From positions 1 through 64,000 of IMG/VR virus record IMGVR_UViG_3300035145_001308: DNA of 64,000 nucleotides, one strand, 5' to 3'. A program made the translations under genes and the position numbers. The notes beneath the pieces were generated by a model. It saw only the letters and a program-made list of their open reading frames with translations, searched no databases and was not told the origin of the DNA. Positions 28,901 to 63,727 of this stretch are shown in pieces; the stretch's first letter is position 1; each line of letters opens with the position of its first letter. This stretch comes from a virus.

Positions 28901-29405
28901 AAATGGTAATCTAAGATTTGACGATAGTGTATTCTTAAACTTTGGTACTGGAACTGATGCAGAGATGTATTTTAATGGTACTGATTTCTTTATTGATATG
29001 AACAGCGATGCAGATATTCGCTTTAGAGATGGTAACAGCAGTAATAACACTAGATTCTTCTTTGATATTAGTGCAGGCGATTTTACTGCTGACGGTGAAA
29101 TAACAGCTTATTCCGATGTTACACTTAAAGACAATATCGAGGTGATTGCAGATCCTCTTACTAAAATACTAAGTGTAAGAGGTGTTACATTTACACGTAA
29201 AGATAAAAATGATGGTCAAGTTCATATGGGTGTGATTGCACAAGAGATTGAAGAATACTTCCCAGAAGTTGTTAACACAAATGACGAAGGTATTAAGTCA
29301 GTCAACTACGGTGCAATGGCAGGTGCATTTATTGAAGCGTTTAAAGAGCAACAGTCTCAAATCGATGAACTGAAAGAAATGGTGCAAAAATTACTAGATA
29401 AATAA
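19935..29405 (+). CDS. Giant tail fibre with C-terminal S74 chaperone domain (3156 aa)
   Basis: N-terminus: ATTIKHKRSAIAGKKP, a common fibre attachment opening. A beta-helix domain follows at about 155-420 (VIYVSQEQGDDANDGQ, NTVIKGDGLRG). Three KC-x-RD modules (near 509, 668 and 835) match those of the upstream giant protein. Later parts hold two HG-x-x-x-G modules (GHGLTNGLKVIYD, NHGFGNGDPVSYD with YYV), GGTGLSTYAVGDILYA, and repeated FTGNGSGLT and LDGIDSASFLRSD units (residues about 2640-2990). From about 3059, SDVTLKDNIEVI, GVIAQEIEEYFPEVV, and SVNYGAMAGAFIEAFKE followed by a coiled coil form a Peptidase_S74 intramolecular chaperone, which trimerises the fibre and is then cut off. Probable receptor-binding long fibre. 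Confidence 0.88.
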   Translation: MATTIKHKRSAIAGKKPIVSQLESGELAINTADGKVFLLRDDSTVQDITKRIFVNDTEITIDDFGDSASAEINMRVNDNDALNVTDAGFNFFKDVDVENANTLTFKELTASGDDGVSLKAPNTLDSGYTLTLPPTQGSIGQLLKVDATGNLSFTDPDVFGGNVIYVSQEQGDDANDGQSAPVRTVKRACKLASALVYNADGTINFKRVNIKVAVGDYTEDNPIIVPDNTVIKGDGLRGCIIRPANANQDMLRVRNACYFGEFTFRDGVDNNFVPTLTADYAVAFDDPFDTTITDRADYTNLPSTRPTITTSPYIQNCSILSFLGMNGAKIDGAKVESPNVPAFGIEAENPVVGAIPEQGKSMVANAFTILSFGGTAWRLLNDAYAQIVSCFEIFLLNGVYCQSGGYCSITNSATNFGLYALRSSGYSPKAFSFDRSHVTATGQADGKQTVSIVGINRDSPVEEFILRFREPEYKTAHDLLILNKDLIADDVVTWINAQISGASPSIWAGFTYSEDKCRRDTQLLLDAIRYDIIFNSNYRTVSAALRYFSGSFPTFTDQKDQHIAAFGQAKTLTANYLSDATATSRSNALWDEIIDILQNGSSDLTQAGNDPADAYTFPTPTGGTDNASDSGYANAVQQLLANKEFIVSEITAYINVQIAAGNAPFSTGFVYNEEKCERDTRLIIDALVYDLTYGGNLQTKIAAEAYFVDGTAQYGTGQQEETIAAYERLKTVVEQVILETTVSVSAGNALTQDTSNAAGSSDASTTAGTRVQTILDFIDNAGAVAVTQIDPDVSWVSGNAEYSAYDELDLEGRINVAQNVTQYINEQIQANIWYNFTYNETKCNRDTQLIVEAAAKDTWDTGNRYSRSAGLAYYTRNLQDSSQISISGQELQTIAAIDRAKTEALTYLTALTSDLQDFVGSRFDIVTTIINDPLDLPDPTEVSAEGDITNDYKTTPSETTFNAATAVNAITNTFTIVGHGLTNGLKVIYDTDGNAPVVGLDQEQTYYVDLIDEDNFKLAFDDSLEFPVNIISASTGTHKFLSGVIEFFVEEILSSHQTYQTLILESGAESYNFVAGRVITGTTGASNNSAIVHSWEPRERRLVVSIEEVAVGASLLRIQFDETSVIAEDHTSGTPNTSIGVNEAAARTGLGTATFSITATDGSSSLSNLVNLLEKQCWFHRPSVVNSSAHTWEYAGSGTDYNALPQNGGNTKSEYEQFEELPGRVYSSGTNELGDFKVGDFITAFNRTGNITFRNKVQVDELDALRLSLSDVAIEEISTSVNLGDDEIGGPSDGRLSTQLAVRSFISNRLGGFVDKTVSTAAVPGAIVQLNTNGQLNGDLIPATRQFTNTNTNGYQSRLEQVDDIPAIDLKAGDIATENYEQVELTLSGNINAADGAEITQPGIAGAVAYAKGSYTASGNILVVTQDGAWNDEDDSVGDPWDVSGTAPNLFVNGVDSGVRPTSKGPSTEIVDNWFLRSSNTSQYLELDPGEDYTFTSATLTTIERNSNVATATTSTAHNLQVGNNVQVLCVEDTTFDENTLVISTPTSTTFTYANTDSADPTKASASVTGTVRSIVTSADGGAQGAVTEVRFGIASNLDNANITGGSGYTPTLGNKVYENVDLQAKTGSGTGARADITVTAGQVTDVDIDRGGTGYEVGDLLEVNASDVGGTGSGFEIEITGIEKRAYVNILGGELFVASSSSIDFVEDNTAVATGKDINLDDILSHNFLAGVSGSGGAVNYTDSRIIITNHGFGNGDPVSYDSLANTPIGGLLNGSVYYVKVIDANTIELYNGFALLSKVTFTSTPANNNHNITRKTINITDNSVVVIGHGYTTGDAIRIETLSDGSTSNELPTIDGGDPIDSGSRFFVGSLTTNSFTLHTLRSDAISSINDLVTNAEDITAIGTGSAQVIQNNVQVNAVINTSSRLLANWNTLAVTNIDAENIISGTISPSRLGSGIPNSDSVLFGDSAYKTVVQSLKKATTTDNPITLTGSSLSGEFYGDPVNIGIANADYDPLGTFSTLGVSRFLQTQFDVDSAGTGQVFIKDGVVDAGTLDGLDSAYFLNPANLTSNVPVTKGGTGLSTYAVGDILYAETSGSLNTVNIGRANNFLKSNGTNPEWGTALDLAEGLDVGSAALTSTSTGAGRLYNDNVTSLEIGGDATNIIMGNGSGPRNLFTFVASYEADTSRDVAVNLENVVQSTAEVTDNGINEVIMSDTTGILSGMIVTGSASIPSNTTVSGVTEDAIYLSANTTGSILSGVSLSFTYTPYTLGINVGDTVNISGSGVSNLDGTHPVSGATDTATSFTIRTENLVVALATDIPAGAITINNNLVLRNNNVIIGNAETSTAPVDGAIRGADGLGADVGGGSLTIEAGLGTGNATGGDIIIKTGEVGSTGDLAQTSTTRLTIDTSGNTTITGYTNFSDDTAIKVPVGTTAQRPTAATGQIRFNSTDSTYEGYDGTAWSSLGGVIDQDQDTKIIAQTAAGDDNDDLDFFTAGTQRMQIDENGDLKFGDSLDKFTVAYSSGNMTVAGNLTLTGDLQVDGTTSTINSTTLQVDDKNIELGTVDTPTDTTANGGGITLKGTTDKTITWDVLQTSWDFSEHVNLANTKEFRINDVAVLSSTTLGSAVVSSSLTGTGILNSGSINTGFGNINIGTSTFTGNGSGLTTLNGSNISSGTVDGARLGGNQTMAGVKTFSDTSAATNTTTGAIRVGGGMGVAGAIYAGSLNTTQGGGIQNLSANNLGTGTVPNARISGTYSNLTGTGALDAGEITSGFGNINIGTSTFTGNGSGLTNVDAETLDGIDSASFLRSDAADTMAALLTIEHAGDELLRLTDTSASGSPAMTFYQSTTERATIEYLDSGDVFRFTNETSDEYLQIGSGHTGLQYNVSGVTGGLYTVWHSGNDGAGSGLDADNLDGLASTSFIRSDTNDAFSGTLSGTGSISITGNIGATAFTGDGSGLTGISADDAQTLDGIDSTGFLRSNVSDIKTNGNLRFDDSVFLNFGTGTDAEMYFNGTDFFIDMNSDADIRFRDGNSSNNTRFFFDISAGDFTADGEITAYSDVTLKDNIEVIADPLTKILSVRGVTFTRKDKNDGQVHMGVIAQEIEEYFPEVVNTNDEGIKSVNYGAMAGAFIEAFKEQQSQIDELKEMVQKLLDK

Positions 29406-51515: not shown

Positions 51516-51544
51516 TTGACAAGATAAATAAGATTGTGTAGTAT
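51516..51544 (+). promoter_or_regulatory. Composite promoter before gp32
   Basis: TTGACA (51516-51521, perfect -35), 17-bp spacer, TAGTAT (51539-51544). The spacer contains a perfect GATAAATA late octamer (51523-51530). Expected starts: near 51550 from sigma70 and near 51537 from the late sigma. Confidence 0.65.
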
Positions 51545-52621: not shown

Positions 52622-52630
52622 GATAACAAC

Positions 52631-52670
52631 ACCCCCCAGGCTTGTCATAGACAGCTCAATACCGGGGGGT
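52631..52670 (+). other. G/C-run hairpin between gp32 and uvsX
   Basis: ACCCCCC (52631-52637) pairs with GGGGGGT (52664-52670), extended by GG/CC after a bulge, with an inner TGTC/GACA hairpin. No T-run. It could be a partial terminator or an mRNA-processing element that lowers uvsX relative to gp32. Confidence 0.55.
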
Positions 52671-52699
52671 TACTTACGCTTTTTAGAATAGGAGAAAAT

Positions 52700-53791
52700 A
52701 TGGCTACTAAGGCATTCGATCCTTCAAAGTTTCGAAACAGTTTAACAAAATCTATTAAAGGTATGAGTTCAGGGTTCAATGATCCACAAGATTGGATCAG
52801 CACAGGTAACTTTGCACTTAACTATTTACTTAGTGGAGACTTTAGAAAAGGTGTTCCATTAGGAAAAGTAAGCGTGTTTGCAGGCGAATCAGGTGCAGGC
52901 AAATCTTACATTGTGTCTGGTAATATTGTAAAGTCAGCACAAGAACAAGGTATTTTTGTTGTATTGATTGACAGTGAAAATGCACTTGATGAAAAGTGGC
53001 TACACGCATTAGGTGTAGAAACAACAGAAGACAAAATCCTAAAACTTAACATGGCAATGATTGATGATGTTGCTAAAACTATTTCAACATTTATGGATGA
53101 CTATCGTGCAATGGACGAAACAGACCGTCCTAAAGTGTTGTTTGTAGTTGATAGTTTAGGTATGCTTATGTCACCAACTGAAGTTAATCAGTTTGAAGCA
53201 GGTGATATGAAGGGTGATATGGGTCGTAAGGCCAAAGCACTGAAAGCATTGGTTACTAACTGTGTTAATATGTTTGGTTCACACAACGTAGGTATGGTTG
53301 TTACTAACCACACATACGCATCGCAAGATATGTTTGATCCAGACGACAAGATCTCAGGTGGTAGTGGTTTTATCTATGCAAGCTCGATGGTGGTTGCTAT
53401 GAAAAAGCTGAAACTAAAAGAAGATGCAGATGGTAACAAAACTAGCACTGTGAATGGTATTAGAGCAGCGTGTAAAGTTATGAAAACACGTTACGCAAAA
53501 CCGTTTGAAGGTGTACAAGTAAAAATCCCATACGAAACAGGTATGGATCCATATTCAGGTATGTTTGATTTGTTAGAAGCAAAAGGCTTACTTGAAAAAC
53601 AAGGTAACCGCTACAAGTATATTGATAGCAAAGGCGAAGAAACTCTAGAATATCGCAAGAACTGGACAGGTGACAAACTCGAAATGATCATGGCCGATTT
53701 ACCGGCAAAAGAAGAACAAATGGTAAATATCGCTAACGCAGACGAAGAAGCTGTGGTTGATCATGAAGAGGGACTTGCGATAAATGAATGA
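52700..53791 (+). CDS. uvsX: UvsX recombinase (RecA-like)
   Basis: 363 aa (T4: 391). ATP-dependent strand exchange, recombination-dependent replication. Walker A GESGAGKS at 62-69, Walker B KVLFVVDSLGML around 146-157, and VVTNHTYASQDMFDPDDKIS then GGSGFIYASSMVV as the L2-type segment. NYLLSGDFRKGVPLGK precedes the P-loop as in RecA. C-terminus is acidic. GGAGAAAAT before the ATG. Overlaps the next gene by 8 bp. Confidence 0.96.
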   Translation: MATKAFDPSKFRNSLTKSIKGMSSGFNDPQDWISTGNFALNYLLSGDFRKGVPLGKVSVFAGESGAGKSYIVSGNIVKSAQEQGIFVVLIDSENALDEKWLHALGVETTEDKILKLNMAMIDDVAKTISTFMDDYRAMDETDRPKVLFVVDSLGMLMSPTEVNQFEAGDMKGDMGRKAKALKALVTNCVNMFGSHNVGMVVTNHTYASQDMFDPDDKISGGSGFIYASSMVVAMKKLKLKEDADGNKTSTVNGIRAACKVMKTRYAKPFEGVQVKIPYETGMDPYSGMFDLLEAKGLLEKQGNRYKYIDSKGEETLEYRKNWTGDKLEMIMADLPAKEEQMVNIANADEEAVVDHEEGLAINE

Positions 53792-54011
53792 AGACTTTGT
53801 AGCCGATTTATGGAACTTGTTTAAAGAGTATCTAGACAAGAAACATACGGATATGGCAGCTGAAAGATTTGTTGACATGCTAGTTGATTACGGAATGACT
53901 GATGTTCAGTTACAAGAAATACTAGGACAAGATAAAATACTAGACGCTGCTATACAATATTACTTAGAAATGGATTCCGACGACGACGAAGATTATGATT
54001 GGGATGAGTAA
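53784..54011 (+). CDS. Small acidic protein between uvsX and uvsY
   Basis: 75 aa. A helical protein (EDFVADLWNLFKEYLDKKHT, AAERFVDMLVDYGMTD) with a very acidic tail (EMDSDDDEDYDWDE). I recall similar small proteins following uvsX in marine T4-like phages. A clamp- or polymerase-binding tail like that of gp33/gp55 is possible because such tails are short and acidic/hydrophobic, but I see no match to those proteins. Starts 8 bp inside uvsX and its stop overlaps the uvsY ATG. Confidence 0.65.
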   Translation: MNEDFVADLWNLFKEYLDKKHTDMAAERFVDMLVDYGMTDVQLQEILGQDKILDAAIQYYLEMDSDDDEDYDWDE

Positions 54012-54466
54012 TGGGTTGGTACAGCCGAGTAAGCAGAGATATTGGACAAATACCTTCTGCTGTACAATATTTTGAAAACGAACTTATTGAAGCAAAACGT
54101 GAATGTAATATCAGCGGTAGCATAGAAAAAGCTGCCGCTGCTATGCCTGGTATTGTTGAACACAGATTTAATCAGTTACAAGAACTTGAGGCAATCTTAG
54201 AGTATCTCAATATTGAACTAAGACGTTTGCGTAGTCAGTTTTTTAAGAAATATTTAGAAAACTATCAACGTGCATTAAGCAGTCGTGACGTAGAAAAATA
54301 TGTCGACGGCGAAGCAGATGTTGTTGATTATGAAAAGATTATAAACGAGTTTGCTCTAATACGTAACAAATGGTTAGGTGTGTTAAAAGCACTTGATCAA
54401 AAACAATGGCAACTAACTAATATTGTAAAACTACGAGTCGCAGGAATGGAAGATGCAAGTTTATGA
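54011..54466 (+). CDS. uvsY: UvsY recombination mediator
   Basis: 151 aa (T4 UvsY: 137). Helps UvsX displace gp32 from ssDNA. Helical throughout. LRRLRSQFFKKYLENYQRAL, SSRDVEKYVDGEADVVDYEK, FALIRNKWLGVLKALDQKQW and QLTNIVKLRVAGMEDASL fit the marine UvsY pattern (Y-Q-R-x-L-S-S-R-D-v-x-k-Y-x-d-G-E). Order gp32 - uvsX - uvsY supports it. Its stop overlaps the first glycan gene by 4 bp (ATGA). Confidence 0.85.
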   Translation: MGWYSRVSRDIGQIPSAVQYFENELIEAKRECNISGSIEKAAAAMPGIVEHRFNQLQELEAILEYLNIELRRLRSQFFKKYLENYQRALSSRDVEKYVDGEADVVDYEKIINEFALIRNKWLGVLKALDQKQWQLTNIVKLRVAGMEDASL

Positions 54467-55176
54467 GCATAACAATAGTTTCTACTTGGAGTGAAAAGAA
54501 CTATCAAGAATATGCAAAATACTTTTTAGAAAGTGCAAAAAAATACATTTCAGAAGATATAAATGTTCGGGTATATACTGATGTTCCTTATAAAGACTTA
54601 CCTGGACATTTTGAAAATCTACCATTAGAAGCAAGTTGTCCCGATTTAGTAGATTTTAAAAGACGTAACGAACATAGAAAACCTACAGGCAAAAAAGCAT
54701 TTATGCAAGATGCAGTAAGATTTGCACATAAAAGCTATGCCATTATACATGCAAGTAGAACTGTTGACACTGAACAGTTAATATGGTTAGATGCAGATAC
54801 AGAAATATTATGCCCATTAACAAGCGATTGGTTTAAATCTTTTTTACCAAAAAAATACTTTTGTGCATATCTAGGACGTGATAACAAATATAGCGAAACA
54901 GGATATCTACAGTTTAATCTGAAAAAAGCAAAATCATTTTTTGACAAATGGGATTGGTATTATAAGTCTGATGAAATATACAACTTACGTGCCCAGTTAG
55001 ATTGTCATGTTTTTGATGCTTGTTTAGAACATTTTCCAAAACTTAATGGACACAATATTAGTCCTCCTTGGACACAAAAAAGACATTTTGATATAGCATT
55101 TGAAAAATACATGTGCCATTATAAAGGCAGTGATAAAGAGAAACGAGATATATATTTTTGGAAAGCAACTAGATGA
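54463..55176 (+). CDS. Glycosyltransferase-like protein (GT-A)
   Basis: 237 aa. SITIVSTWSEKNYQEYAKYF at the N-terminus, NVRVYTDVP, FMQDAVRFAHKSYAI, and QLIWLDADTEILCPL at about residues 105-119 with a D-x-D (Asp110-Ala-Asp112). ETGYLQFNLKKAK and a DAQLDCHVFDA-type segment follow. This is the layout of small GT8/GT2-like enzymes. First gene of the glycan cassette; coupled to uvsY and to the epimerase by ATGA overlaps. Confidence 0.75.
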   Translation: MSITIVSTWSEKNYQEYAKYFLESAKKYISEDINVRVYTDVPYKDLPGHFENLPLEASCPDLVDFKRRNEHRKPTGKKAFMQDAVRFAHKSYAIIHASRTVDTEQLIWLDADTEILCPLTSDWFKSFLPKKYFCAYLGRDNKYSETGYLQFNLKKAKSFFDKWDWYYKSDEIYNLRAQLDCHVFDACLEHFPKLNGHNISPPWTQKRHFDIAFEKYMCHYKGSDKEKRDIYFWKATR

Positions 55177-56033
55177 AAACAATACTTACAGGACATAACG
55201 GATTTATTGGTGGTCATTATCATAGGTATTTGAAAGATAAAAATATCTCGCCTATTACTGTGGATAAAAGATCAGGACAGGATTTGTGTGATGTTAATAT
55301 TACAAACGATTTGCCTGATTGCGATGTTGTAATACACTTAGCAGCAACAAATGGCACAAAACTGTTTTACGAACAACCTACAGATGTGTGTTTTAACAAC
55401 ACACTTCCTACATTTAATCTTGTTGCTAGATATAGACACTCTAACACAAAGTTTGTATTCGCAAGCACATGCGAAATATTTTCAGGAGCAATAGATGCGG
55501 GTCATTACCATATTCCAACTGATGAGCAAGTACCAGTTATGTTTAACGACATTCTCAATCCGAGATGGAGTTATAGCGTTCCGAAAGCTGTCGGAGAAAA
55601 CCTAGTTGCAAACTGCGGATTGCCTTGGTTGATTATTAGATATTTTAATATATACGGTCCCGGACAAGTTGATCATTTTATAAGTGAGTTTGTAGAACGT
55701 TGTAAACAAGGCGAATATTATATCAAAGGCGATGACACTAGAAGTTTTTGCTATGTAGACGATGCTATTGAAATGACAGACCGTCTTGTTAATAATACAA
55801 ATAATAAAATAGTACACGTAGGTAATGATCAAGAAGTAAACATTAGTGTTGTTGCAAAACTTATAATGGGGTATATGGATATTAATCCTGCTAAACTGGA
55901 AGTTTTACCTGGTCCTAAAGGCAGTGCTAAACGCAGATGTCCTGATACTACACTTGTACAAACATTAACAGGTTTTTTAGATTATACACCGTTAGAAGTA
56001 GGTCTTAAAAAGACAGTGGAAAGTTTATTATGA
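55173..56033 (+). CDS. NAD-dependent epimerase/dehydratase (extended SDR)
   Basis: 286 aa. Glycine-rich TGHNGFIGGH at 6-15 binds NAD(P); the active-site Ser98 in FASTCEIF and Tyr134-x-x-x-Lys138 (YSVPK) are in place; RYFNIYGPGQ at 156-165 is typical of extended SDR enzymes that work on nucleotide sugars. Slightly shorter than most (300-340 aa). Likely makes or interconverts a UDP/GDP/dTDP sugar. Translationally coupled on both sides. Confidence 0.88.
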   Translation: MKTILTGHNGFIGGHYHRYLKDKNISPITVDKRSGQDLCDVNITNDLPDCDVVIHLAATNGTKLFYEQPTDVCFNNTLPTFNLVARYRHSNTKFVFASTCEIFSGAIDAGHYHIPTDEQVPVMFNDILNPRWSYSVPKAVGENLVANCGLPWLIIRYFNIYGPGQVDHFISEFVERCKQGEYYIKGDDTRSFCYVDDAIEMTDRLVNNTNNKIVHVGNDQEVNISVVAKLIMGYMDINPAKLEVLPGPKGSAKRRCPDTTLVQTLTGFLDYTPLEVGLKKTVESLL

Positions 56034-56824
56034 ATATAGGTATTATTGGTTTAGGTGCAGTAGGATCTGCTAACAGACATGGCTTTGTACAGTTAGGGCA
56101 CAGTGTTGTAGAACATGATATAAAACTAGATACAAAAATAAATGATGTATTAGATTGCGAAATATGTTTTTTATGCGTTCCTACTCCGCAAGCAGATGAT
56201 GGCAGTTGTGATACAAGTATTATTGAAAATGTAATCAAAGAACTAAACTTGTATAGTTACAAAGGTATAGTTGCAATACGCAGTACAGTTGTTCCAGGTT
56301 TTACACAACGCATGATTGACACTTATAAAAATCTTACAATATGTTTTGTGCCCGAGTTTTTGCGTGAACGTTGTGCAGAAGAAGATTTTATAAACAACCA
56401 TAAGTTGCTTGCTATTGGAACACATGATATTCAAGTATATAGGAAACTTGTACAAGCACATGGTAGTTATCCTGAACACACAGAACACCTTACACCAAAT
56501 GAAGCAGAAGTATTAAAGTATTATAACAATGTATATGCAGCATTGCGTGTAACATTTGCAAATGTAATGTATGAAGTTTGTGAAAAACTAGATTGTGATT
56601 ATACAACTATAAAAAATGCTTACATTAAAACAGGCAAAGCAAAAGACATGTATCTTGATGTTAATCCAAATTTACGTGGATACGGTGGTATGTGTTTACC
56701 AAAAGACACACAAGCAATAATGAGCTTACTAAACAAACTAGACTTAGATTATGATTTGATCGATAGTATTGATGCAGATAATCGCAAGTTCAAAAAAACA
56801 GTATTTAATGGCATGCGTGATTAA
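56030..56824 (+). CDS. UDP-glucose/GDP-mannose 6-dehydrogenase-like, short
   Basis: 264 aa versus about 390-430 for full enzymes. Rossmann GLGAVG at 7-12, CFLCVPTPQADDGSCD near 46-60, IRSTVVPGFT near 83, FVPEFLRE near 107 and the catalytic-Cys block GGMCLPKD near 219-226 are intact. The C-terminal UDP-binding domain is missing; the chain ends soon after the central helix. Known family enzymes oxidise the sugar C6 twice to a uronic acid. Whether the short form is active is open. Confidence 0.82.
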   Translation: MNIGIIGLGAVGSANRHGFVQLGHSVVEHDIKLDTKINDVLDCEICFLCVPTPQADDGSCDTSIIENVIKELNLYSYKGIVAIRSTVVPGFTQRMIDTYKNLTICFVPEFLRERCAEEDFINNHKLLAIGTHDIQVYRKLVQAHGSYPEHTEHLTPNEAEVLKYYNNVYAALRVTFANVMYEVCEKLDCDYTTIKNAYIKTGKAKDMYLDVNPNLRGYGGMCLPKDTQAIMSLLNKLDLDYDLIDSIDADNRKFKKTVFNGMRD

Positions 56825-56831
56825 ATAATGT

Positions 56832-57602
56832 ATGAGCAAAGTTATTCTAGTAACAGGTGGATTTGATCCATTACACAGTGGACATATTGAATATTTTAAA
56901 GCGGCAAAAGAACTAGGGCAACATTTAGTTGTCGGGGTTAATAGTGACGAATGGCTTGCCCGTAAAAAAGGTAAGCCTTTTATGCCCTTTACAGAACGTA
57001 CAGCAATCATAAAATCTTTAGAATGTGTTGACGAAGTTATTGGCTTTGACGATGCAGACGATAGTGCATGTGCTGCTATAGGACAAGTGTTAGCAACAAA
57101 AGGATCAAGCTGGAAACTTGTGTTTGCTAATGGCGGAGACAGAACAAAAACAAACAGTCCAGAACTTGATATATATGGTGATCATCCTGATGTTGAGTTT
57201 GCGTTTGGTGTAGGCGGCGAAGATAAAAAGAATAGCTCAAGCTGGATATTAAAAAACTGGGATAAACCAGTAACCAAACGTGCTTGGGGTGAATACAAAG
57301 TACTAGATAGCAACGGAGAATGGCAAGTCAAAGAACTTACATTTTATGAAGGCAAAGCACTTAGTGATCAAAGACATTTCAAACGCAGCGAACACTGGCA
57401 CGTTGTTGATGGTGTTATAGCAATGTTGCTTGAAGATAGAAAAGGCAACAAATACCAACAACTTCTTGTGCCTGGAGATAGTATTGATATTCCTACTGGT
57501 TATTGGCACAAAGCAATCAACATGGATAACAAAGCAGCCAAAGTAATAGAAGTTTGGATGGGTAAAGATTTAACTGAAGAAGATATTGAAAGAAGAGACT
57601 AA
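56832..57602 (+). CDS. Nucleotidyltransferase-cupin fusion
   Basis: 256 aa. N-terminal half: VTGGFDPLHSGHIEYFKAA (HSGH at 15-18) and KKGKPFMPFTERTAIIKSL are the HxGH cytidylyl/adenylyltransferase signature as in RfaE domain II and TagD, which activate a sugar- or polyol-phosphate with CTP or ATP. FGVGGEDKKNSSSWIL at about 118-133 ends this domain. C-terminal half (about 145-256) is a cupin: LSDQRHFKRSEHWHVVDGV, VPGDSIDIPTGYWHKAINM, like mannose-6-phosphate isomerase type II. A two-domain enzyme for making one activated sugar is likely. ATG follows TTAAATAATG, a late-like string. Ends TAATG with the next gene. Confidence 0.85.
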   Translation: MSKVILVTGGFDPLHSGHIEYFKAAKELGQHLVVGVNSDEWLARKKGKPFMPFTERTAIIKSLECVDEVIGFDDADDSACAAIGQVLATKGSSWKLVFANGGDRTKTNSPELDIYGDHPDVEFAFGVGGEDKKNSSSWILKNWDKPVTKRAWGEYKVLDSNGEWQVKELTFYEGKALSDQRHFKRSEHWHVVDGVIAMLLEDRKGNKYQQLLVPGDSIDIPTGYWHKAINMDNKAAKVIEVWMGKDLTEEDIERRD

Positions 57603-58276
57603 TGAAAGTATTTGTAGGATATGACACTAGAGAAGATATTGCTTATCAAGTGTGTAAGCACAGTATAATAAGCAAACAGCCAGCAGCTGATGTGCGTCCA
57701 TTAAAACAACAAGAGTTACGTGATGCAGGATGGTACAAACGTGATGTAGATAAACTTGCAAGCACTGAGTTTACATTTACACGTTTTCTAATACCAGAAC
57801 TCACAGATTTCAAAGGCTGGGCATTGTTTATGGATTGTGATATGATCCTTACTACAGATATTAAAGAACTTTTTGATCAAGCAGATGACAAGTATGCTGT
57901 AATGTGTGTGCAGCATGACTATACTCCAAAAGCAGGCATAAAAATGGATGGGCAAAAACAAACTATCTATCCACGCAAAAACTGGTCAAGTGTCATGTTG
58001 TTTAACTGTGGTCATCATGCTAATCGTAAAGTTACACAAAGTCTAGTTAACGATCCTGAAATCACTGGTGCATACTTACACAGGTTTAGTTGGCTTAACG
58101 ATTTTGAAATAGGAGAACTACATCACACATGGAACTATCTTGTTGGCGTATATGACGATATTGAAAAACCTAACCTTATACATTACACAGAAGGTGGTCC
58201 GTGGTTTGAAAACTATAGAGATTGTGAGTTTGCAGATTTATGGAAAGCAGAACTACAGGATATGATGAATGGCTAA
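57602..58276 (+). CDS. GT8-like glycosyltransferase
   Basis: 224 aa. MKVFVGYDTREDIAYQVC, TEFTFTRFLIPEL, WALFMDCDMILTTDIKELF (D-x-D at 78-80), NWSSVMLFNCGHH and HYTEGGPWFENY are the ordered motifs of this family of glycosyltransferases, frequent in marine phages. Overlaps the methyltransferase by 8 bp. Confidence 0.85.
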   Translation: MKVFVGYDTREDIAYQVCKHSIISKQPAADVRPLKQQELRDAGWYKRDVDKLASTEFTFTRFLIPELTDFKGWALFMDCDMILTTDIKELFDQADDKYAVMCVQHDYTPKAGIKMDGQKQTIYPRKNWSSVMLFNCGHHANRKVTQSLVNDPEITGAYLHRFSWLNDFEIGELHHTWNYLVGVYDDIEKPNLIHYTEGGPWFENYRDCEFADLWKAELQDMMNG

Positions 58277-59069
58277 AGACAAGCCTAAGTTTAGAATGCA
58301 CATAGAGTATCCTGATGGTACTGTACATAGAGGCAAAAAAGACTTTAGAGTTTGGACTGATCTTATTGGCATAAGTGATGTAGATTTTACAGGCAAACGT
58401 GTATTAGACATTGCCACAGACGAAGGTTGGTGGGCTTTTTGGACAGAAATGCGTGGCGCAGAATATGTAGAAGCAAGCGATGTAGAAAGAGGAGAAGATT
58501 ACGATTGGGGAAATAAAAAAGACTGGAACTGGATTAACGAACTAAATGCAAACAGAGGTGGACGAAATGTCTTCGATTTTCATCATAAAAATCTCAATAG
58601 TAAAGTTGTAGTTAAAAAAGAAAGCATATATCAAGCAGATGGAGAGTTTGATTGGATATTTGCACACGGTCTTATGTATCATCTACGCCATCCTTTATTA
58701 GCTATAGATAATATGTATCGAATATGTAAAGGTGTGTTTATATTTGAAACTATGGTAGATATTCATAATAATCCTATGGTAGCAGAAGCAAAGTTTTATA
58801 GAACAACAGAACTTGGACCAATATCAAACTGGACAGGTGCAACAACAGCATGTTATGCTAGTTATTTAAAAGATGCCGGATTTGAAGATGTATATTTTAC
58901 ACAAACAGGTACACCTCTAGGCACACCCAGACAACTCTTTATAGCTGTTAAAGATCCAATATACAATAGGTTGTTTTGGAAAAATAAAAACTTAACATAT
59001 TGTGACTCAAAATATTGGGATTATGTTTTTGAACAAACAAGATTTAATAGCAATGATAATATCGCATAA
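58269..59069 (+). CDS. Class I SAM-dependent methyltransferase
   Basis: 266 aa. Motif I RVLDIATDEGWWAFWTEM at 44-61, acidic ASDVERGEDYDW after strand 2, and DWIFAHGLMYHLRHPLLAID around 127-146, resembling the CmoB/tRNA-wobble methyltransferase and sugar O-methyltransferase groups. A late segment QTGTPLGTPRQLFIAVK is typical of glycan methyltransferases. Likely methylates a sugar of the cassette product. It overlaps the following sulfotransferase by 17 bp. Confidence 0.8.
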   Translation: MAKDKPKFRMHIEYPDGTVHRGKKDFRVWTDLIGISDVDFTGKRVLDIATDEGWWAFWTEMRGAEYVEASDVERGEDYDWGNKKDWNWINELNANRGGRNVFDFHHKNLNSKVVVKKESIYQADGEFDWIFAHGLMYHLRHPLLAIDNMYRICKGVFIFETMVDIHNNPMVAEAKFYRTTELGPISNWTGATTACYASYLKDAGFEDVYFTQTGTPLGTPRQLFIAVKDPIYNRLFWKNKNLTYCDSKYWDYVFEQTRFNSNDNIA

Positions 59070-59649
59070 ACATAAGTTTATATTTGTAAAAACTTTCAAA
59101 ACAGCAGGGTCTAGTATTGAAAACTATTTACAGAAGTACCTTGGCCCAAATGATATTATTAGAGGTAGTCAGTATGACAACACACCTTCGTTAAATGCTC
59201 CATCAAAAGGAAGACATGCATCAGTACAACAAATAAAAGAATGGTATCCAAATGATTGGAACGATGAATATTTTTCTTTTTGTGTTGAAAGAAATCCATG
59301 GAACGTAGCAGTTAGCTATTATTTCTATATGAAACATGCAGGCAGGATAAAATCACAAACATTTGATGAATGGATAAAAGTTGAAGATTTACAAAAACTG
59401 AATAACTACAAAAAATATACTATCAATAATAAAGTTGTAGTGAACAAAGTTTTAAAATATGAAAACTTAGAAAGTGATATTAATAATATACCTGTACCGT
59501 ATAATGGAGAATTAAAAACTATTTTTCTAAAGAAAGGGCATAGACCTTCCAAAGATTATAAAATACATTATACAGATGAAACAAGAAAGTTAATAGAAGA
59601 TAACTTTGCAGAAACAATAAGTATGTTTGGATACACGTATGAAGATTGA
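59053..59649 (+). CDS. Sulfotransferase family protein
   Basis: 198 aa from the ATG at 59053 (an earlier in-frame start lies deeper inside the preceding gene). Phosphosulfate-binding loop FVKTFKTAGSSIENYL at about 11-26 and CVERNPWNVAVSYYF at about 77-91 are the 5' and 3' PAPS-binding motifs of the Sulfotransfer_2 type. It would transfer sulfate from PAPS to a glycan hydroxyl. Small compared with most (220-300 aa). Overlaps the next ATG by 11 bp. Confidence 0.8.
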   Translation: MIISHKHKFIFVKTFKTAGSSIENYLQKYLGPNDIIRGSQYDNTPSLNAPSKGRHASVQQIKEWYPNDWNDEYFSFCVERNPWNVAVSYYFYMKHAGRIKSQTFDEWIKVEDLQKLNNYKKYTINNKVVVNKVLKYENLESDINNIPVPYNGELKTIFLKKGHRPSKDYKIHYTDETRKLIEDNFAETISMFGYTYED

Positions 59650-60112
59650 ATTTGGAGCAGGAGAAACACCAACAAAAACAGACTTTCTACAGCAAGATAT
59701 AAGAGCAGTAGAAGGTATTGATTTTGTGTGTGCTGCCTGGGATATAGATAAACATGTGAATTTGAACTCTGTAGACGAAATATTTTCAAGACATTTCTTT
59801 GAACATTTAACATTTAGACAAGGGGAATATTTGTTGGAAGTTTGGCACAAAATATTAAAGCCAGGAGGCAGAGTAGAAATGATGTTGCCAAATATGTTAT
59901 GCCATGTGCATCAATGGATAAATGGTGATCCAAGAGCAGCAGAAAATATATACGGACATCAACGAGGCGAGTTTGAAGATACATGGGATACACACAAAAG
60001 CGGATACGATGCATACAGTATGCAAGAACTAGTAGAAAGAAAAAACTTTGTTAGATATAAATCGTTTAACAAAGATAAAAGCAAACACTTACATGTAGAG
60101 TTTTATAAATGA
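59639..60112 (+). CDS. SAM-dependent methyltransferase-like (Methyltransf_11 type)
   Basis: 157 aa from the ATG at 59639, which begins MKIEFGAGETPTKTDFLQQD as motif I. SVDEIFSRHFFEHLTFRQGE corresponds to the x-x-lEHl post-motif and WHKILKPGGRVEMMLPN to motif III. Shorter than typical. Ends with a basic C-terminus. Overlaps the next gene by 4 bp (ATGA). Confidence 0.72.
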   Translation: MKIEFGAGETPTKTDFLQQDIRAVEGIDFVCAAWDIDKHVNLNSVDEIFSRHFFEHLTFRQGEYLLEVWHKILKPGGRVEMMLPNMLCHVHQWINGDPRAAENIYGHQRGEFEDTWDTHKSGYDAYSMQELVERKNFVRYKSFNKDKSKHLHVEFYK

Positions 60113-60885
60113 TTTGCCTTAGTAAAAATAAAAAAGATGTTTTTATAAACAGATTTGCAAAAGGATCTAATCTTCCTATACAAGATTATGACGAACCAAT
60201 ACCAGATGGTCCAATATTAATACGCAGTATTGCAAAAAAACTTTTGATAAGAGAACGTTGGAAAACAGGCAAACCTTTTTATTATATGGATAGTGGATAC
60301 TTTGGCAACTATAAATCAAGGGCTAATCCAAATGGCTGGAAGTTATGGCATCGTATTGTTAAGAATGATTTACAACACAGTGAAATAAAAGAACGTCCAG
60401 ATGATAGATGGAAACGTTTAGATATCGAACTGAAGTTTAATAACTATGGTGGTAGACATATATTACTTGTTTTACCAAGCGAAAAGCCATGTAAGTTTTA
60501 CGGCATTGACTTGGACGAATGGACAGAACAAACAATACACGAAATAAAAAGACATACTGATAGACCTATTGTGGTAAGAGCAAAAGGCACTAGAGGCGAA
60601 AGACTAAAAAATACAATATGGCAAGACTTGGAAAAATGTCATGCCATGGTTACATATCAAAGTATTGCAGCAGTTGAAAGTGTTATTGCAGGAGTGCCTG
60701 CTTTTACACTTGCACCGACAGCAGCAGACCCGGTGTGTGATAAAGATTTAACTAAACTAGAAAATCCTACTGTACAACATAAAGAAAAGCTACGTGCTTG
60801 GGCACATCATTTAGCATATGGACAGTTTCATACAGATGAGTTTCTAAATGGCAATGCATGGAGAATATTAAAAAATGAAAGTTGA
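60109..60885 (+). CDS. Tandem paralogue 1 of 4: capsule-type GT-B-like protein
   Basis: 258 aa. The C-terminal half shares a signature with the three following genes: TDRPIVVRAK (others have R-x-HP), CHAMVTYQSIAAVESVIAGVPAFTL, an LENPT turn, and AHHLAYGQFHTDEFLNGNAWR. This arrangement (strand-HP-..., V-x-TY-x-S, GiPVf, W...SGEAW) recalls capsular polysaccharide synthesis/export proteins (KpsS/Kdo-transferase-like, GT-B). This copy lacks the His-Pro pair. Part of the coupled operon. Confidence 0.6.
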   Translation: MICLSKNKKDVFINRFAKGSNLPIQDYDEPIPDGPILIRSIAKKLLIRERWKTGKPFYYMDSGYFGNYKSRANPNGWKLWHRIVKNDLQHSEIKERPDDRWKRLDIELKFNNYGGRHILLVLPSEKPCKFYGIDLDEWTEQTIHEIKRHTDRPIVVRAKGTRGERLKNTIWQDLEKCHAMVTYQSIAAVESVIAGVPAFTLAPTAADPVCDKDLTKLENPTVQHKEKLRAWAHHLAYGQFHTDEFLNGNAWRILKNES

Positions 60886-61900
60886 TGTATTTTTATCGAG
60901 CACGTTCAACAACACAGAACGTGAAACGCTTGTAAAGTTTTACAATGGTATCAAACGAGATTTGTGGCCAGACGATGCTTTATTAAAACAAAAAAAGATG
61001 ATGGCACATATTAACAAAGAAAACGGATTACGTTCAGGTGTTGAACTTAACTATCATGAAAAAGGTCGAGGCAAGTATGACTTAGCAGTCATAATGGGTA
61101 GTTGGAAACCAGAAAGATCAAGTGTGCATCATGGAGTTAGAACTGCTATTGCTAACAATGAAGAACAAAAACCATTTTTAGTTGTAGAAACACAACTTGT
61201 AGGTAGAAAAGTATTCCAGCCTAATGCGTATCATAGAATAGGACTAAATGGTTTCTTATGTAACCAAGGTATATTTGGTCCTGTAAAAGATTATCCTAGC
61301 GACAGATTTGATAGACTAGATCTGCCTTACAATGGATGGAATAAAAATAGAGGCGATAAAGTTATTATTGCTTTACAATTACCAGGTGATGCTAGTATGC
61401 GTGGCGTCGATATTACTAAATGGGCTATTGAAACTGTAGGTAAAATAAGAGCAGTAAGTGATCGTCCAATAGAAATAAGAACACATCCAGGTGCAAGTGC
61501 TAAAGGTGTATCTTCGTATGCAGAACTATATGAATATCTTGCGTTTGCAAATCACCCAAATGTGCATTGTGTAAATGGTAGAGACATACCCTGGGAAGAT
61601 CATATACTTACAGCTCATTGTGTAGTTGTATATTCTAGTGGATTAGCTATTGATGCAATACTAAATGGCATACCTGTTATAGCACATGATAGCGGTAATT
61701 TTGCTTATCCAATTTGTGATTGTAAAGCAGATCAAGTTGAGAATCCAAAAATGGCAGATGAAGACATTGTTAAAAACTGGCTCAACACCTTAGCGTACTC
61801 TCAATGGTCTCCTAGTGAAATGGAGTCAGGAGAAGCTTGGCAACATATCAAGCCGTGTGTATATGAATATTTAGAGTTTATAAAAGATGAAAGTAGTTAG
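60875..61900 (+). CDS. Tandem paralogue 2 of 4: GT-B-like protein
   Basis: 341 aa, the longest copy. Carries SDRPIEIRTHPGASAKG, AHCVVVYSSGLAIDAILNGI, IPVIAHDSGNFAYPI and YSQWSPSEMESGEAWQHIKP. N-terminal half has YDLAVIMGSWKPERS and VHHGVRTAIANNEEQKPFLV with a GLNGFLCN, different from copy 1. Start ATG lies 11 bp inside copy 1. Presumed glycan transferase; substrate unknown. Confidence 0.62.
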   Translation: MKVDVFLSSTFNNTERETLVKFYNGIKRDLWPDDALLKQKKMMAHINKENGLRSGVELNYHEKGRGKYDLAVIMGSWKPERSSVHHGVRTAIANNEEQKPFLVVETQLVGRKVFQPNAYHRIGLNGFLCNQGIFGPVKDYPSDRFDRLDLPYNGWNKNRGDKVIIALQLPGDASMRGVDITKWAIETVGKIRAVSDRPIEIRTHPGASAKGVSSYAELYEYLAFANHPNVHCVNGRDIPWEDHILTAHCVVVYSSGLAIDAILNGIPVIAHDSGNFAYPICDCKADQVENPKMADEDIVKNWLNTLAYSQWSPSEMESGEAWQHIKPCVYEYLEFIKDESS

Positions 61901-62816
61901 TTATTTAAAAGGCATACCTAATAGCAAAAACCAAGAAAAAATAGATGTTTTAAATCATTTTATTACTGGTGTAAATCGTTGCGGAGATATTGGTATAGCA
62001 AGTCAAGACAGAGTTTGGCAACCTAGTGATGCAGCGATATTACAGGGTTTTATCAGCGATCATAGTAGCAAACTACCTAGATCTCCTCATTTGTTATTGC
62101 GTAAACAAGTATATGATCAACAACTTGCAAATAAGAAACACACTATTATTATTGATAGTAATCTATTTTTATATGCAGATCCAGGTAACACAAAAAGGTA
62201 TTTACGATATAGTATGAACGGAGTGTTTCCTACAACAGCAAATTATTTCTGGGATAAGCCTGATCCTAGAAGATGGGAAAGTATAAGTAAAAACTTGAAC
62301 TTGGATTTGAAACCAGTTAGACAAACTGGAAAACATATCCTTATTTGTTGCCAACGTAATGGCGGTTGGAGCATGGGCGGACTAGAAGTAATGGATTGGT
62401 TAAGACAAACTGTAAAAAGATTGCATAAGTTTACTGATAGACCTATTGTAGTGCGAGGACACCCTGGAGATAAAAAAGCACCCGGATATCTAAGACTACC
62501 AAAAAAATGGACTAATGTACGTATTAGTAAGAACGAACATATACAACAAGATTTTAAAAACTGTTGGGCAGTTATAACATATAACAGTAGTCCAGGTGTT
62601 GCAGCAGCTATAGAAGGCATACCTGTATTTGTTACAGATCCTGTTCCAGAAGTTAGTCAAGCGTTTGATATTTGCAATACAGAAATAAGAAAAATAGAAA
62701 GACCTAGGTTACCAGATAGACAAAGGTGGATAGAAAAAATATCAATGTGTCATTGGAACTTCGACGAGCTTAAATCCGGAGAAGCGTGGCGTCATATGAG
62801 GAGATATATTTGTTAA
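61887..62816 (+). CDS. Tandem paralogue 3 of 4: GT-B-like protein
   Basis: 309 aa. TDRPIVVRGHPGDKKAPGYL, CWAVITYNSSPGVAAAIEGI, PVFVTDPVPEV, IERPRLP and CHWNFDELKSGEAWRHMR. DKPDPRRWESISKNL in the middle resembles DRWNKFVK in copy 4. Start overlaps copy 2 by 14 bp. Confidence 0.62.
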   Translation: MKVVSYLKGIPNSKNQEKIDVLNHFITGVNRCGDIGIASQDRVWQPSDAAILQGFISDHSSKLPRSPHLLLRKQVYDQQLANKKHTIIIDSNLFLYADPGNTKRYLRYSMNGVFPTTANYFWDKPDPRRWESISKNLNLDLKPVRQTGKHILICCQRNGGWSMGGLEVMDWLRQTVKRLHKFTDRPIVVRGHPGDKKAPGYLRLPKKWTNVRISKNEHIQQDFKNCWAVITYNSSPGVAAAIEGIPVFVTDPVPEVSQAFDICNTEIRKIERPRLPDRQRWIEKISMCHWNFDELKSGEAWRHMRRYIC

Positions 62817-63727
62817 AAATAGCAGGTATTAGAGGATGTACAAAAGCAGTAAAAAATATTTTGAAAGGTATACAAAGACATGGTGATCAATATATACTTG
62901 CTGAAAAACATTCTGAAGAAGCTAGAAACGCAGATGCATACCTACAAACTAATCTTTTAAAACCAAAGTATGCTACAAAAGATAGATCTGGTTCATACGA
63001 ATATGTTTTAGATAGTGGCAAGCCTTTCTTAGTGCAAGAAAGTGCTAACTTTAGAAACTATTACAAAGAATGGCAAAGACTAGGATGGTACAGTTACAAA
63101 TGGACGGATGGCATATTCGGCAATGAAAAATCTCCTCCAGATAGATGGAACAAGTTTGTAAAAATGACAGGCTGTAAAATAAAAAATTGGCAAAGTCATG
63201 GTGGCAAAATTATTCTCATGGGTCAGAAAGAAGGAGATAGTAGTCTTACAGACTTGTATGATCAAGGTAAAACTTTTGCACAATGGACACAAGAAACAGT
63301 AAATGAAATAAGAAAGTATTCAGACAGAGATATAATCATAAGACCGCATCCAAGAGGACTTAGCAGAGGAATAAAAGTTGCCAATAGCATAAAAGGAAAA
63401 AATGTATATGTATCTGAAAACATAAGCCACGGAGGAAATCAAGGCGGTGAAGGATTGTTAGCAGATTTACAAAATGCACATTGCGTAGTTACATACAATA
63501 GTTTAAGTGCTATTGAAGCTGTATGTGAAGGAGTTCCTGTTTTTGCTTTGAACAACGGAAGTATGGTCTGGCCTATAGCACATAGAAAGTTGAGTAGAAT
63601 AGAAAACTTGAACTATTCAATAGATATTACGCAATGGTGTAACGATATTGCATATACACAATGGCATATTGACGAAATGAGAGCTGGCGAAGCGTGGGAA
63701 CATTTACGTCCATTAATGTTCAAATAA
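62810..63727 (+). CDS. Tandem paralogue 4 of 4: GT-B-like protein
   Basis: 305 aa from TTG at 62810, supported by GAGGAG at 62798-62803 and by the N-terminal length of the other copies; an earlier GTG at 62786 is less likely. Carries SDRDIIIRPHPRGLSRGIKV, AHCVVTYNSLSAIEAVCEGV, PVFALNNGSMVWPIA, IENL and YTQWHIDEMRAGEAWEHL. Also has DRWNKFVKMTGCKIKNW and GKIILMGQKEGDSSL. Its stop lies inside the convergent FkbM-like gene by 8 bp. Last gene of the plus-strand operon. Confidence 0.62.
   Translation: MLKIAGIRGCTKAVKNILKGIQRHGDQYILAEKHSEEARNADAYLQTNLLKPKYATKDRSGSYEYVLDSGKPFLVQESANFRNYYKEWQRLGWYSYKWTDGIFGNEKSPPDRWNKFVKMTGCKIKNWQSHGGKIILMGQKEGDSSLTDLYDQGKTFAQWTQETVNEIRKYSDRDIIIRPHPRGLSRGIKVANSIKGKNVYVSENISHGGNQGGEGLLADLQNAHCVVTYNSLSAIEAVCEGVPVFALNNGSMVWPIAHRKLSRIENLNYSIDITQWCNDIAYTQWHIDEMRAGEAWEHLRPLMFK

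Follow-up and report, generated by a model that had tools for sequence, protein, structure and literature searches.

A 64,000-nt window of a 65,910-base viral contig (record G000), from a marine bacteriophage, carries twelve open reading frames (ORFs) at 54463-63727, all on the + strand and directly after uvsX/uvsY, which may form an assembly line for a glycan built with sugars of the 3-deoxy-D-manno-oct-2-ulosonic acid (Kdo) type. In this reading, which we hold to be about evenly balanced between right and wrong, a core of the island is expressed late and the structural proteins of the phage are slightly favoured as acceptor. An earlier note on this DNA had described a same-strand cassette of at least twelve overlapping genes after uvsY for the synthesis, transfer and modification of glycans, and this description held, since all twelve ORFs were found at their coordinates and the families matched. 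The genes, with the families that identify them (GT, glycosyltransferase; SDR, short-chain dehydrogenase/reductase; SAM, S-adenosylmethionine), are as follows.

52700..53791, +, uvsX recombinase (PF00154)
54011..54466, +, uvsY-like gene (assigned in the earlier note; position constant in relatives, following uvsX and a small ORF)
54463..55176, +, g1, GT-A glycosyltransferase (GTa family), by fold
55173..56033, +, g2, SDR nucleotide-sugar epimerase/dehydratase (PF01370, Epimerase, 1.1e-33; phrog_540)
56030..56824, +, g3, short UDP-sugar-dehydrogenase-like protein (PF03721 and PF00984 only, UDPG_MGDP_dh N and central domains, 8e-18)
56832..57602, +, g4, nucleotidyltransferase-cupin fusion (NT-cupin), first gene of the conserved core (PF01467, CTP_transf_like, 8.7e-15; PF01050, MannoseP_isomer, 9.6e-20)
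57602..58276, +, g5, GT8-type glycosyltransferase (PF01501, Glyco_transf_8, 1.4e-06; phrog_28018, 7e-53)
58269..59069, +, g6, SAM methyltransferase (PF13489, Methyltransf_23, 1.3e-07)
59053..59649, +, g7, sulfotransferase (PF03567, Sulfotransfer_2, 7.3e-05, barely above cut-off; phrog_3347, 1.2e-08)
59639..60112, +, g8, probable short SAM methyltransferase (PF08241, 0.0011, below cut-off)
60109..60885, +, g9, paralogue 1 (PSEKP in place of QxxxD, HP motif lost)
60875..61900, +, g10, paralogue 2 (QLPGD and RTHP)
61887..62816, +, g11, paralogue 3 (QRNGG and RGHP: HP retained, Gly at the nucleophile position)
62810..63727, +, g12, paralogue 4 (QKEGD and RPHP)

The four proteins encoded by g9-g12 are mutually homologous (24-32% identity, E values of 1e-20 to 1e-35), and no Pfam family matched them above cut-off, with sub-threshold hints only. 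Their fold was taken from a model of g11 alone, generated with AlphaFold2 from an 84-sequence alignment (pLDDT 96.3). When this model was compared with the PDB using Foldseek, places 1-23 were all occupied by KpsC, WbbB and KrkA (E values of 4.7e-8 to 4e-6, TMq up to 0.59), further KrkA entries followed to 2e-5, and generic GT-B enzymes ranked after these cytidine monophosphate (CMP)-Kdo transferases. Comparison with models of viral proteins (BFVD) returned 'capsule polysaccharide' proteins of Tetraselmis virus 1, and CcrColossus. Tetraselmis virus 1 encodes several paralogues of the same fold (A0A2P0VNK4, A0A2P0VP54, A0A2P0VP72 and A0A2P0VP74); its hosts are green algae, with a cell covering rich in Kdo and methylated Kdo.

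Retaining β-Kdo transferases are defined by the motifs QxxxD and (K/R)xHP (PMC12887879, PMC9587256). QxxxD is kept in g10, g12 and their orthologues and lost in g9 and g11, and the CMP-binding motif (K/R)XHP is present in g10, g11 and g12 and absent from g9. In alignments, QxxGD together with RxHP was seen in 6/6 rows of the g10 subfamily, Asp at the nucleophile position in the 12/12 rows closest to g12, Gly there in the 30 rows closest to g11, and a PSEKP-like sequence without HP in 17/17 rows of the g9 subfamily, while a further GT-B type of ~283 aa carries a QHDKS-like sequence and RPHP. Each motif pattern is common to the orthologues, and we therefore regard these proteins as specialised subfamilies and not as products of decay. 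KpsC (GT107), WbbB (GT99) and KrkA (GT140) (PMC10148158, PMC9587256, PMC12887879) share the GT-B fold with g11 and both motifs with g10 and g12, but the island differs from them in its proteins of 258-341 aa, its four subfamilies, two of them free of the nucleophile, and the lack of a significant sequence match in the PDB. Because sequence similarity to the solved members is not significant, the paralogues were not placed in GT99, GT107 or GT140; judged by sequence, they are a new family. From the g11 model and the motifs, we infer that g9-g12 are GT-B glycosyltransferases with donors of the CMP-Kdo type.

Relatives of the island were gathered by NT-cupin (the best 80 of 590 IMG/VR matches), by g10 and by uvsX; with g10 as the only query, viral contigs yielded a near-identical contig as the sole match. 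Such a comparison with related contigs had been proposed in the earlier note, and in dozens of contigs it recovered the same families at this site, which argues that the island is not a chance assembly. Across 56 non-redundant loci the usual order was gp32-uvsX-small ORF-uvsY-[island]-c4-uvsW-c9, with a recurring core of NT-cupin, GT8, GT-B paralogues, GTa and the ~283-aa GT-B, and with an epimerase, dehydrogenase, methyltransferases and sulfotransferase whose presence varied between loci. GT8 and a g9-type paralogue form a single polypeptide of 550-587 aa in ~20 loci, and the site is empty in two (L158 and L161), where uvsY leads straight to c4-uvsW. Of the 32 non-redundant contigs that were selected through uvsX and had at least 7 kb of downstream sequence, NT-cupin was present in 23, GT8 in 23, at least two paralogues in 20, and all three in 19. 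By these sequence comparisons, a marine phage lineage has the island as an accessory yet widely conserved feature between its uvsY and uvsW genes. By uvsX, the nearest cultured relatives, among them Atu_ph07, CBB and GAP32, are large phages of ~350-490 kb (57-67% identity among the best matches); the Moraphage lineage (PMC12619734) was considered as the same group, and the identity was not established. Four contigs of this phage type (L269, L270, L281 and L302) were binned in metagenome-assembled genomes of Neomarinimicrobiota, Euryarchaeota, Pelagibacter and Rickettsiales, probably through binning errors, possibly as hints of hosts.

Genes for the supply of Kdo were found in these relatives. 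KdsA (PF00793) and a KdsB-like protein (PF02348) occurred together in the same nine contigs, just downstream of uvsW and with a cupin gene, and a tenth contig held KdsA alone at its cut end. In a contig whose uvsX is 97% identical to that of the window (G004), KdsA exceeded the NCBIfam cut-off, and the KdsB-like protein had KdsB as its best match, below the cut-offs. A scan for KdsA gave at least 80 loci, in 45 of which a member of the GT-B family lay no more than 10 kb away; this set is biased by kinship, and other gene contexts therefore weigh more. These include the order cupin-KdsA-GT8-GTB-GTB in L264, L267 and L268, KdsB-GTB-GTB in L302, with KdsB overlapping the GT-B genes, GT8-KdsA-KdsB and a KdsD-like SIS/CBS protein in Alteromonas (L315), and the cyanophage S-SCSM2R, in which GT8 lies close to KdsB-KdsA and in which GT-B homology was not detected in the genes beside GT8. 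Taken together, the fold of the KpsC/WbbB/KrkA type, the motifs of g10 and g12, the KdsA/KdsB genes of relatives and these independent joins support a donor of the Kdo type. The earlier note had proposed a uronic-acid- or heptose-like glycan; fold, motifs and the KdsA/KdsB-like genes point instead to CMP-Kdo, and what may survive of the proposal is a heptose- or glycerol-like donor made by NT-cupin. A strict co-occurrence of KdsA with GT-B was considered and rejected, as KdsA was present in ~10/15 GT-B-positive contigs and 0/3 negatives, a difference that is not significant, with most of the recounted loci ending too soon. An island-free contig of 232 kb (G010) lacked KdsA. In contigs without KdsA the host could supply CMP-Kdo.

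We then considered the timing of expression, for which three elements in the window are relevant.

56822..56827, +, late-promoter-like element TAAATA, separated by 4 nt from the NT-cupin ATG, in the only intergenic gap of the island
51516..51544, +, sigma70-like promoter (TTGACA-17-TAGTAT) preceding gp32; its spacer contains the late-type octamer GATAAATA (51523-51530)
52622..52699, +, G+C-rich hairpin and T-run in the gp32-uvsX gap (RNA fold -19.9 kcal/mol, z -2.1)

Among the NT-cupin genes of relatives, 60/73 have TAAATA with its end 4-7 nt ahead of an ATG, compared with 302/48866 (0.6%) of all ATGs; this arrangement was absent from the uvsX, uvsY, gp32 and GT-B sets and present in 5/16 sulfotransferase genes. 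In these 60 relatives it forms a TATAAATA-like element at a predicted transcription start, and since the upstream genes differ among relatives the element belongs to NT-cupin. Only five places in the window have TAAATA so positioned, including 42803 (a tail gene), 47932 (terminase), 49520 (a 648-aa protein) and 56822 (NT-cupin), all four possible sites of near-leaderless late transcripts; the sequence reads GATTAAATAATGTATG at NT-cupin and GGTTAAATACAATATG at terminase. Exact TATAAATA was discarded as a motif, as its two occurrences in the window are below chance. The local form GATAAATA occurred 11 times, compared with an expectation of 4.1: ten of the sites are in or beside the structural and packaging module, nearly all of them just ahead of gene starts, one lies before gp32, and none is within the island. 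The jumbo phage CBB, a relative by uvsX, has an ATAAATA motif before its structural genes, and a gp55-like sigma factor has been reported for it (PMC5259590); S-PM2 has NATAAATA (PMC2984593). By analogy with T4, transcription of the core would begin at the NT-cupin ATG or close to it, giving a nearly leaderless RNA.

The promoter upstream of gp32 was recovered with at least 10/12 matches in 64/79 relatives and in 5/79 shuffled controls, and a late octamer lay nearby in 41 of the 64. Overlapping early and late promoters have been described for RB49 and S-PM2 (PMC2984593), and a conserved dual early/late control of gp32 is possible in these relatives. A generic sigma70 scan of the region was set aside, as it gave no more matches than shuffled sequence, and the conserved gp32 site alone stood out. 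In the gp32-uvsX gap, 73 of 80 distinct relatives had a fold with z<-2 (mononucleotide shuffles), with stem sequences that differ. The form of the hairpin is kept while the stem sequence is wholly changed, and CTTTTTAG and a Shine-Dalgarno sequence follow; this suggests a conserved element of the terminator or attenuator type that insulates uvsX from gp32. The earlier note had suggested early expression together with the recombination proteins. For the core, an early-only operon with uvsX/uvsY is rejected by the late-type element at NT-cupin, which in the window is arranged as at terminase; read-through from the gp32 promoter is possible.

The island would then work as follows. The host would supply CMP-Kdo, with phage KdsA and the KdsB-like enzyme contributing in many relatives, and one or more other activated sugars would be provided by NT-cupin, the epimerase and the dehydrogenase. 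GT8 and GTa would build the chain, the KpsC/WbbB-like paralogues, of which g10 and g12 show the signature of double displacement, would add sugars of the Kdo type, and the glycan would be completed by the methyltransferases and the sulfotransferase. With the core from NT-cupin onward under its own late-type promoter element, most product would be made during virion assembly.

As to the acceptor, we slightly favour phage structural proteins, with host lipopolysaccharide (LPS) a close second. The lean towards virion decoration comes from the late timing, from the Caulobacter phage CcrBL9, in which tail genes are followed by GT8 and GT-B genes, and from KdsA/KdsB in the Synechococcus phage S-SCSM2R, as the marine Synechococcus strains studied have LPS without Kdo (PMC4515613). 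The same enzymes could instead extend or cap the lipid A-core of the host, blocking other phages or changing the receptor of the phage itself, and we consider this a serious possibility, somewhat less probable than the assembly line with its lean to the virion. KpsC, WbbB, GT8, HldE-like nucleotidyltransferases and KdsA/KdsB are all envelope-glycan families, this is the published reading for pelagimyophages (PMC7029224) and P-SSM2 (PMC2984593), and the gp32 promoter could read through uvsX, uvsY and the island. Two single-cell genomes of Alphaproteobacteria (L271 and L277) also have homologues of GT8, GT-B and GTa grouped on their chromosomes, which, with L315 and published practice, leans towards the host envelope, but no obvious LPS genes lie beside the chromosomal homologues. 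Exclusion of other phages is usually an early function, and the late-type core element and the conserved gp32-uvsX hairpin speak against mainly early expression. Membrane-spanning enzymes were not found among the genes of the window and numbered 1/705 among downstream proteins of relatives; export as O-antigen was rejected, as the flippase family PF01943 was not found in nine relatives and the window proteins have no hydrophobic spans. Core modification requires no flippase or polymerase, soluble glycosyltransferases being enough, and soluble enzymes without a flippase fit either work on the LPS core or direct glycosylation of proteins. The earlier note had preferred the host surface to virion assembly; gene order gives this possible target no special favour. 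In L271 and L277 (9992-15409), the gene run is GT8, GT-B, a TPR protein, GTa and GT-B beside purH-like and thioredoxin-like genes, and a TPR gene also flanks GT8 in L314. In the structural module of the window, the + strand ORFs at 12249-19826 (2525 aa) and 19935-29405 (3156 aa) may encode tail or fibre proteins, and these could be acceptors of the glycan.

Several observations weigh against a late Kdo-type assembly line acting on the virion. A profile search of PDB sequences with the paralogues gave no match at E<=1, with WbbB only at 1.9, the TM-scores of the g11 fold matches are moderate, and g9 and g11 lack the retaining nucleophile. About five GT-B-positive contigs with >10 kb more downstream sequence have no KdsA, the presence of KdsA does not follow the QxxxD subfamilies, and the record of the window stops before the KdsA/KdsB region. 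There is no late element before g1-g3, a protein-linking glycosyltransferase was not identified, and we know of no phage virion decorated with Kdo. The paralogues with the HP motif might use another CMP-ulosonate (sialic, pseudaminic or a similar acid): (K/R)XHP is common to CMP-sialic acid transferases, one KpsC homologue is a pseudaminic acid transferase (PMC12887879), and g11 is without the retaining nucleophile. However, relatives encode Kdo-8-P synthase and the nearest solved folds are Kdo enzymes, and we judge this donor unlikely. Hypermodification of DNA, like the glucosylation of T4 DNA near uvsX, is suggested by glycosyltransferases near recombination genes in a phage of the T4 superfamily, but the enzymes are of Kdo and capsule type and not DNA glycosyltransferases, and PF00303 (thymidylate synthase/hydroxymethylase) was not found in nine relatives, including contigs of 201-236 kb that are possibly incomplete; this explanation is very improbable. 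Scarcely more probable is neutral cargo, proposed as stuffer DNA for the cyanophage LPS clusters (PMC3037559) and in keeping with the empty sites, since the frames are intact and overlapping, the active sites are specific to subfamilies, and the promoter element keeps its position at 40-60% protein identity. Returning to the Kdo-type assembly line, its fullest form, in which a jumbo lineage makes its own CMP-Kdo and lays a late coat of methylated, sulfated, Kdo-rich glycan on virion proteins with new Kdo-type transferases, two subfamilies of them without the Asp nucleophile, is in our estimate improbable as a whole.

The remaining features of the island concern its layout and accessory enzymes. 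The junctions from uvsY onward are -4, -4, -4, +7, -1, -8, -17, -11, -4, -11, -14 and -7 bp: the sole gap, of 7 bp, precedes g4, and the other neighbours overlap by 1-17 bp. These values assume ATG starts at 59053 for g7 and 59639 for g8, and for g12 a TTG with a Shine-Dalgarno sequence at 62810, all inferred from the sequence; the automatic ORF list chose longer GTG/TTG starts. The uvsY-like gene had no significant Pfam match. Nor did g1, whose AlphaFold2 model (pLDDT 93.2) matched LARGE1 (1.6e-08), BoGT6a and GT6 and GT8 enzymes, and whose WxDxD motif is invariant. The g3 protein (~264 aa in relatives) keeps the catalytic Cys motif GGxCxPKD and lacks the UDP-binding C-domain; its NDP-sugDHase match (2.9e-43) is under the cut-off. 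The best NCBIfam match of g4, rfaE_dom_II (8.8e-20), is also under the cut-off, and as HldE/RfaE domain II it scored 71 bits with TIGR02199, compared with a cut-off of 181.5; its substrate may be heptose-, glycerol- or ethanolamine-phosphate-like. Upstream in the window lies the structural and packaging module (portal, tail sheath, tail tube, endolysin and terminase). Three convergent minus-strand genes, for an FkbM-like methyltransferase, a methyltransferase and a GT-A protein (L002 9721-11745; contig 63720-65744), start at the edge of the window, run past it and close the island from the other side.

The earlier note knew of no described system of this composition in a T4-like phage, a statement that published clusters weaken. 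Multi-gene envelope-glycan clusters of marine T4-like phages have been published as the LPS clusters of P-SSM2, S-SSM7 and S-SM2 (PMC3037559, PMC2984593), with a change of host surface or stuffer DNA proposed; they lie near hli03/phoH and tRNAs and not between uvsY and uvsW, and the available portions of these papers mention neither KpsC-like paralogues nor a core led by a late promoter. Pelagimyophages (PMC7029224) share GT8, rfaE and UDP-glucose dehydrogenase, which were assigned to the host O-chain under the same exclusion hypothesis. The Pelagibacter phage Mosig, like the island, has GTa, GT8, two GT-B paralogues, a sulfotransferase and methyltransferases together, but at another site (after a ruvC-like gene) and with no KdsA match for Mosig in the phage collection. 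By its partly available description, TARA_ERS478052_N000008 (PMC5332604) resembles the island in having Gmd, WcaG, ManC, NeuA, KdsA and WaaG with T4-like structural genes and a 'lock-out' hypothesis, and no paralogous Kdo-transferase family is reported in that portion. The Caulobacter jumbo phages CcrBL9 and CcrColossus have a single gene run that contains GT8, GT-B homologues and a methyltransferase, and differ in its position after tail-fibre genes, in the absence of NT-cupin from it and in belonging to another phage group. A further parallel is the virion glycosylation of mycobacteriophages, in which phage-encoded glycosyltransferases act on capsid and tail subunits (cited in PMC12619734). 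Glycan clusters in marine T4-like phages, the exclusion hypothesis for pelagimyophages and KdsA in a marine viral genome have therefore been published already; in the open-licence literature we found no report of a fixed uvsY-uvsW island, of a KpsC-like paralogue family or of a late-promoter-led core.

For ~20 years, marine T4-like phages have been known to carry glycan clusters, with no sugar, timing or target assigned to them. The core described here recurs in many marine contigs, and a likely donor, CMP-Kdo, can be named together with two enzymes that have recognisable catalytic residues. The positioned late-promoter element makes the timing testable, and virion decoration can be separated from remodelling of the host surface. 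The paralogue family would extend the rare retaining β-Kdo transferases to phages.

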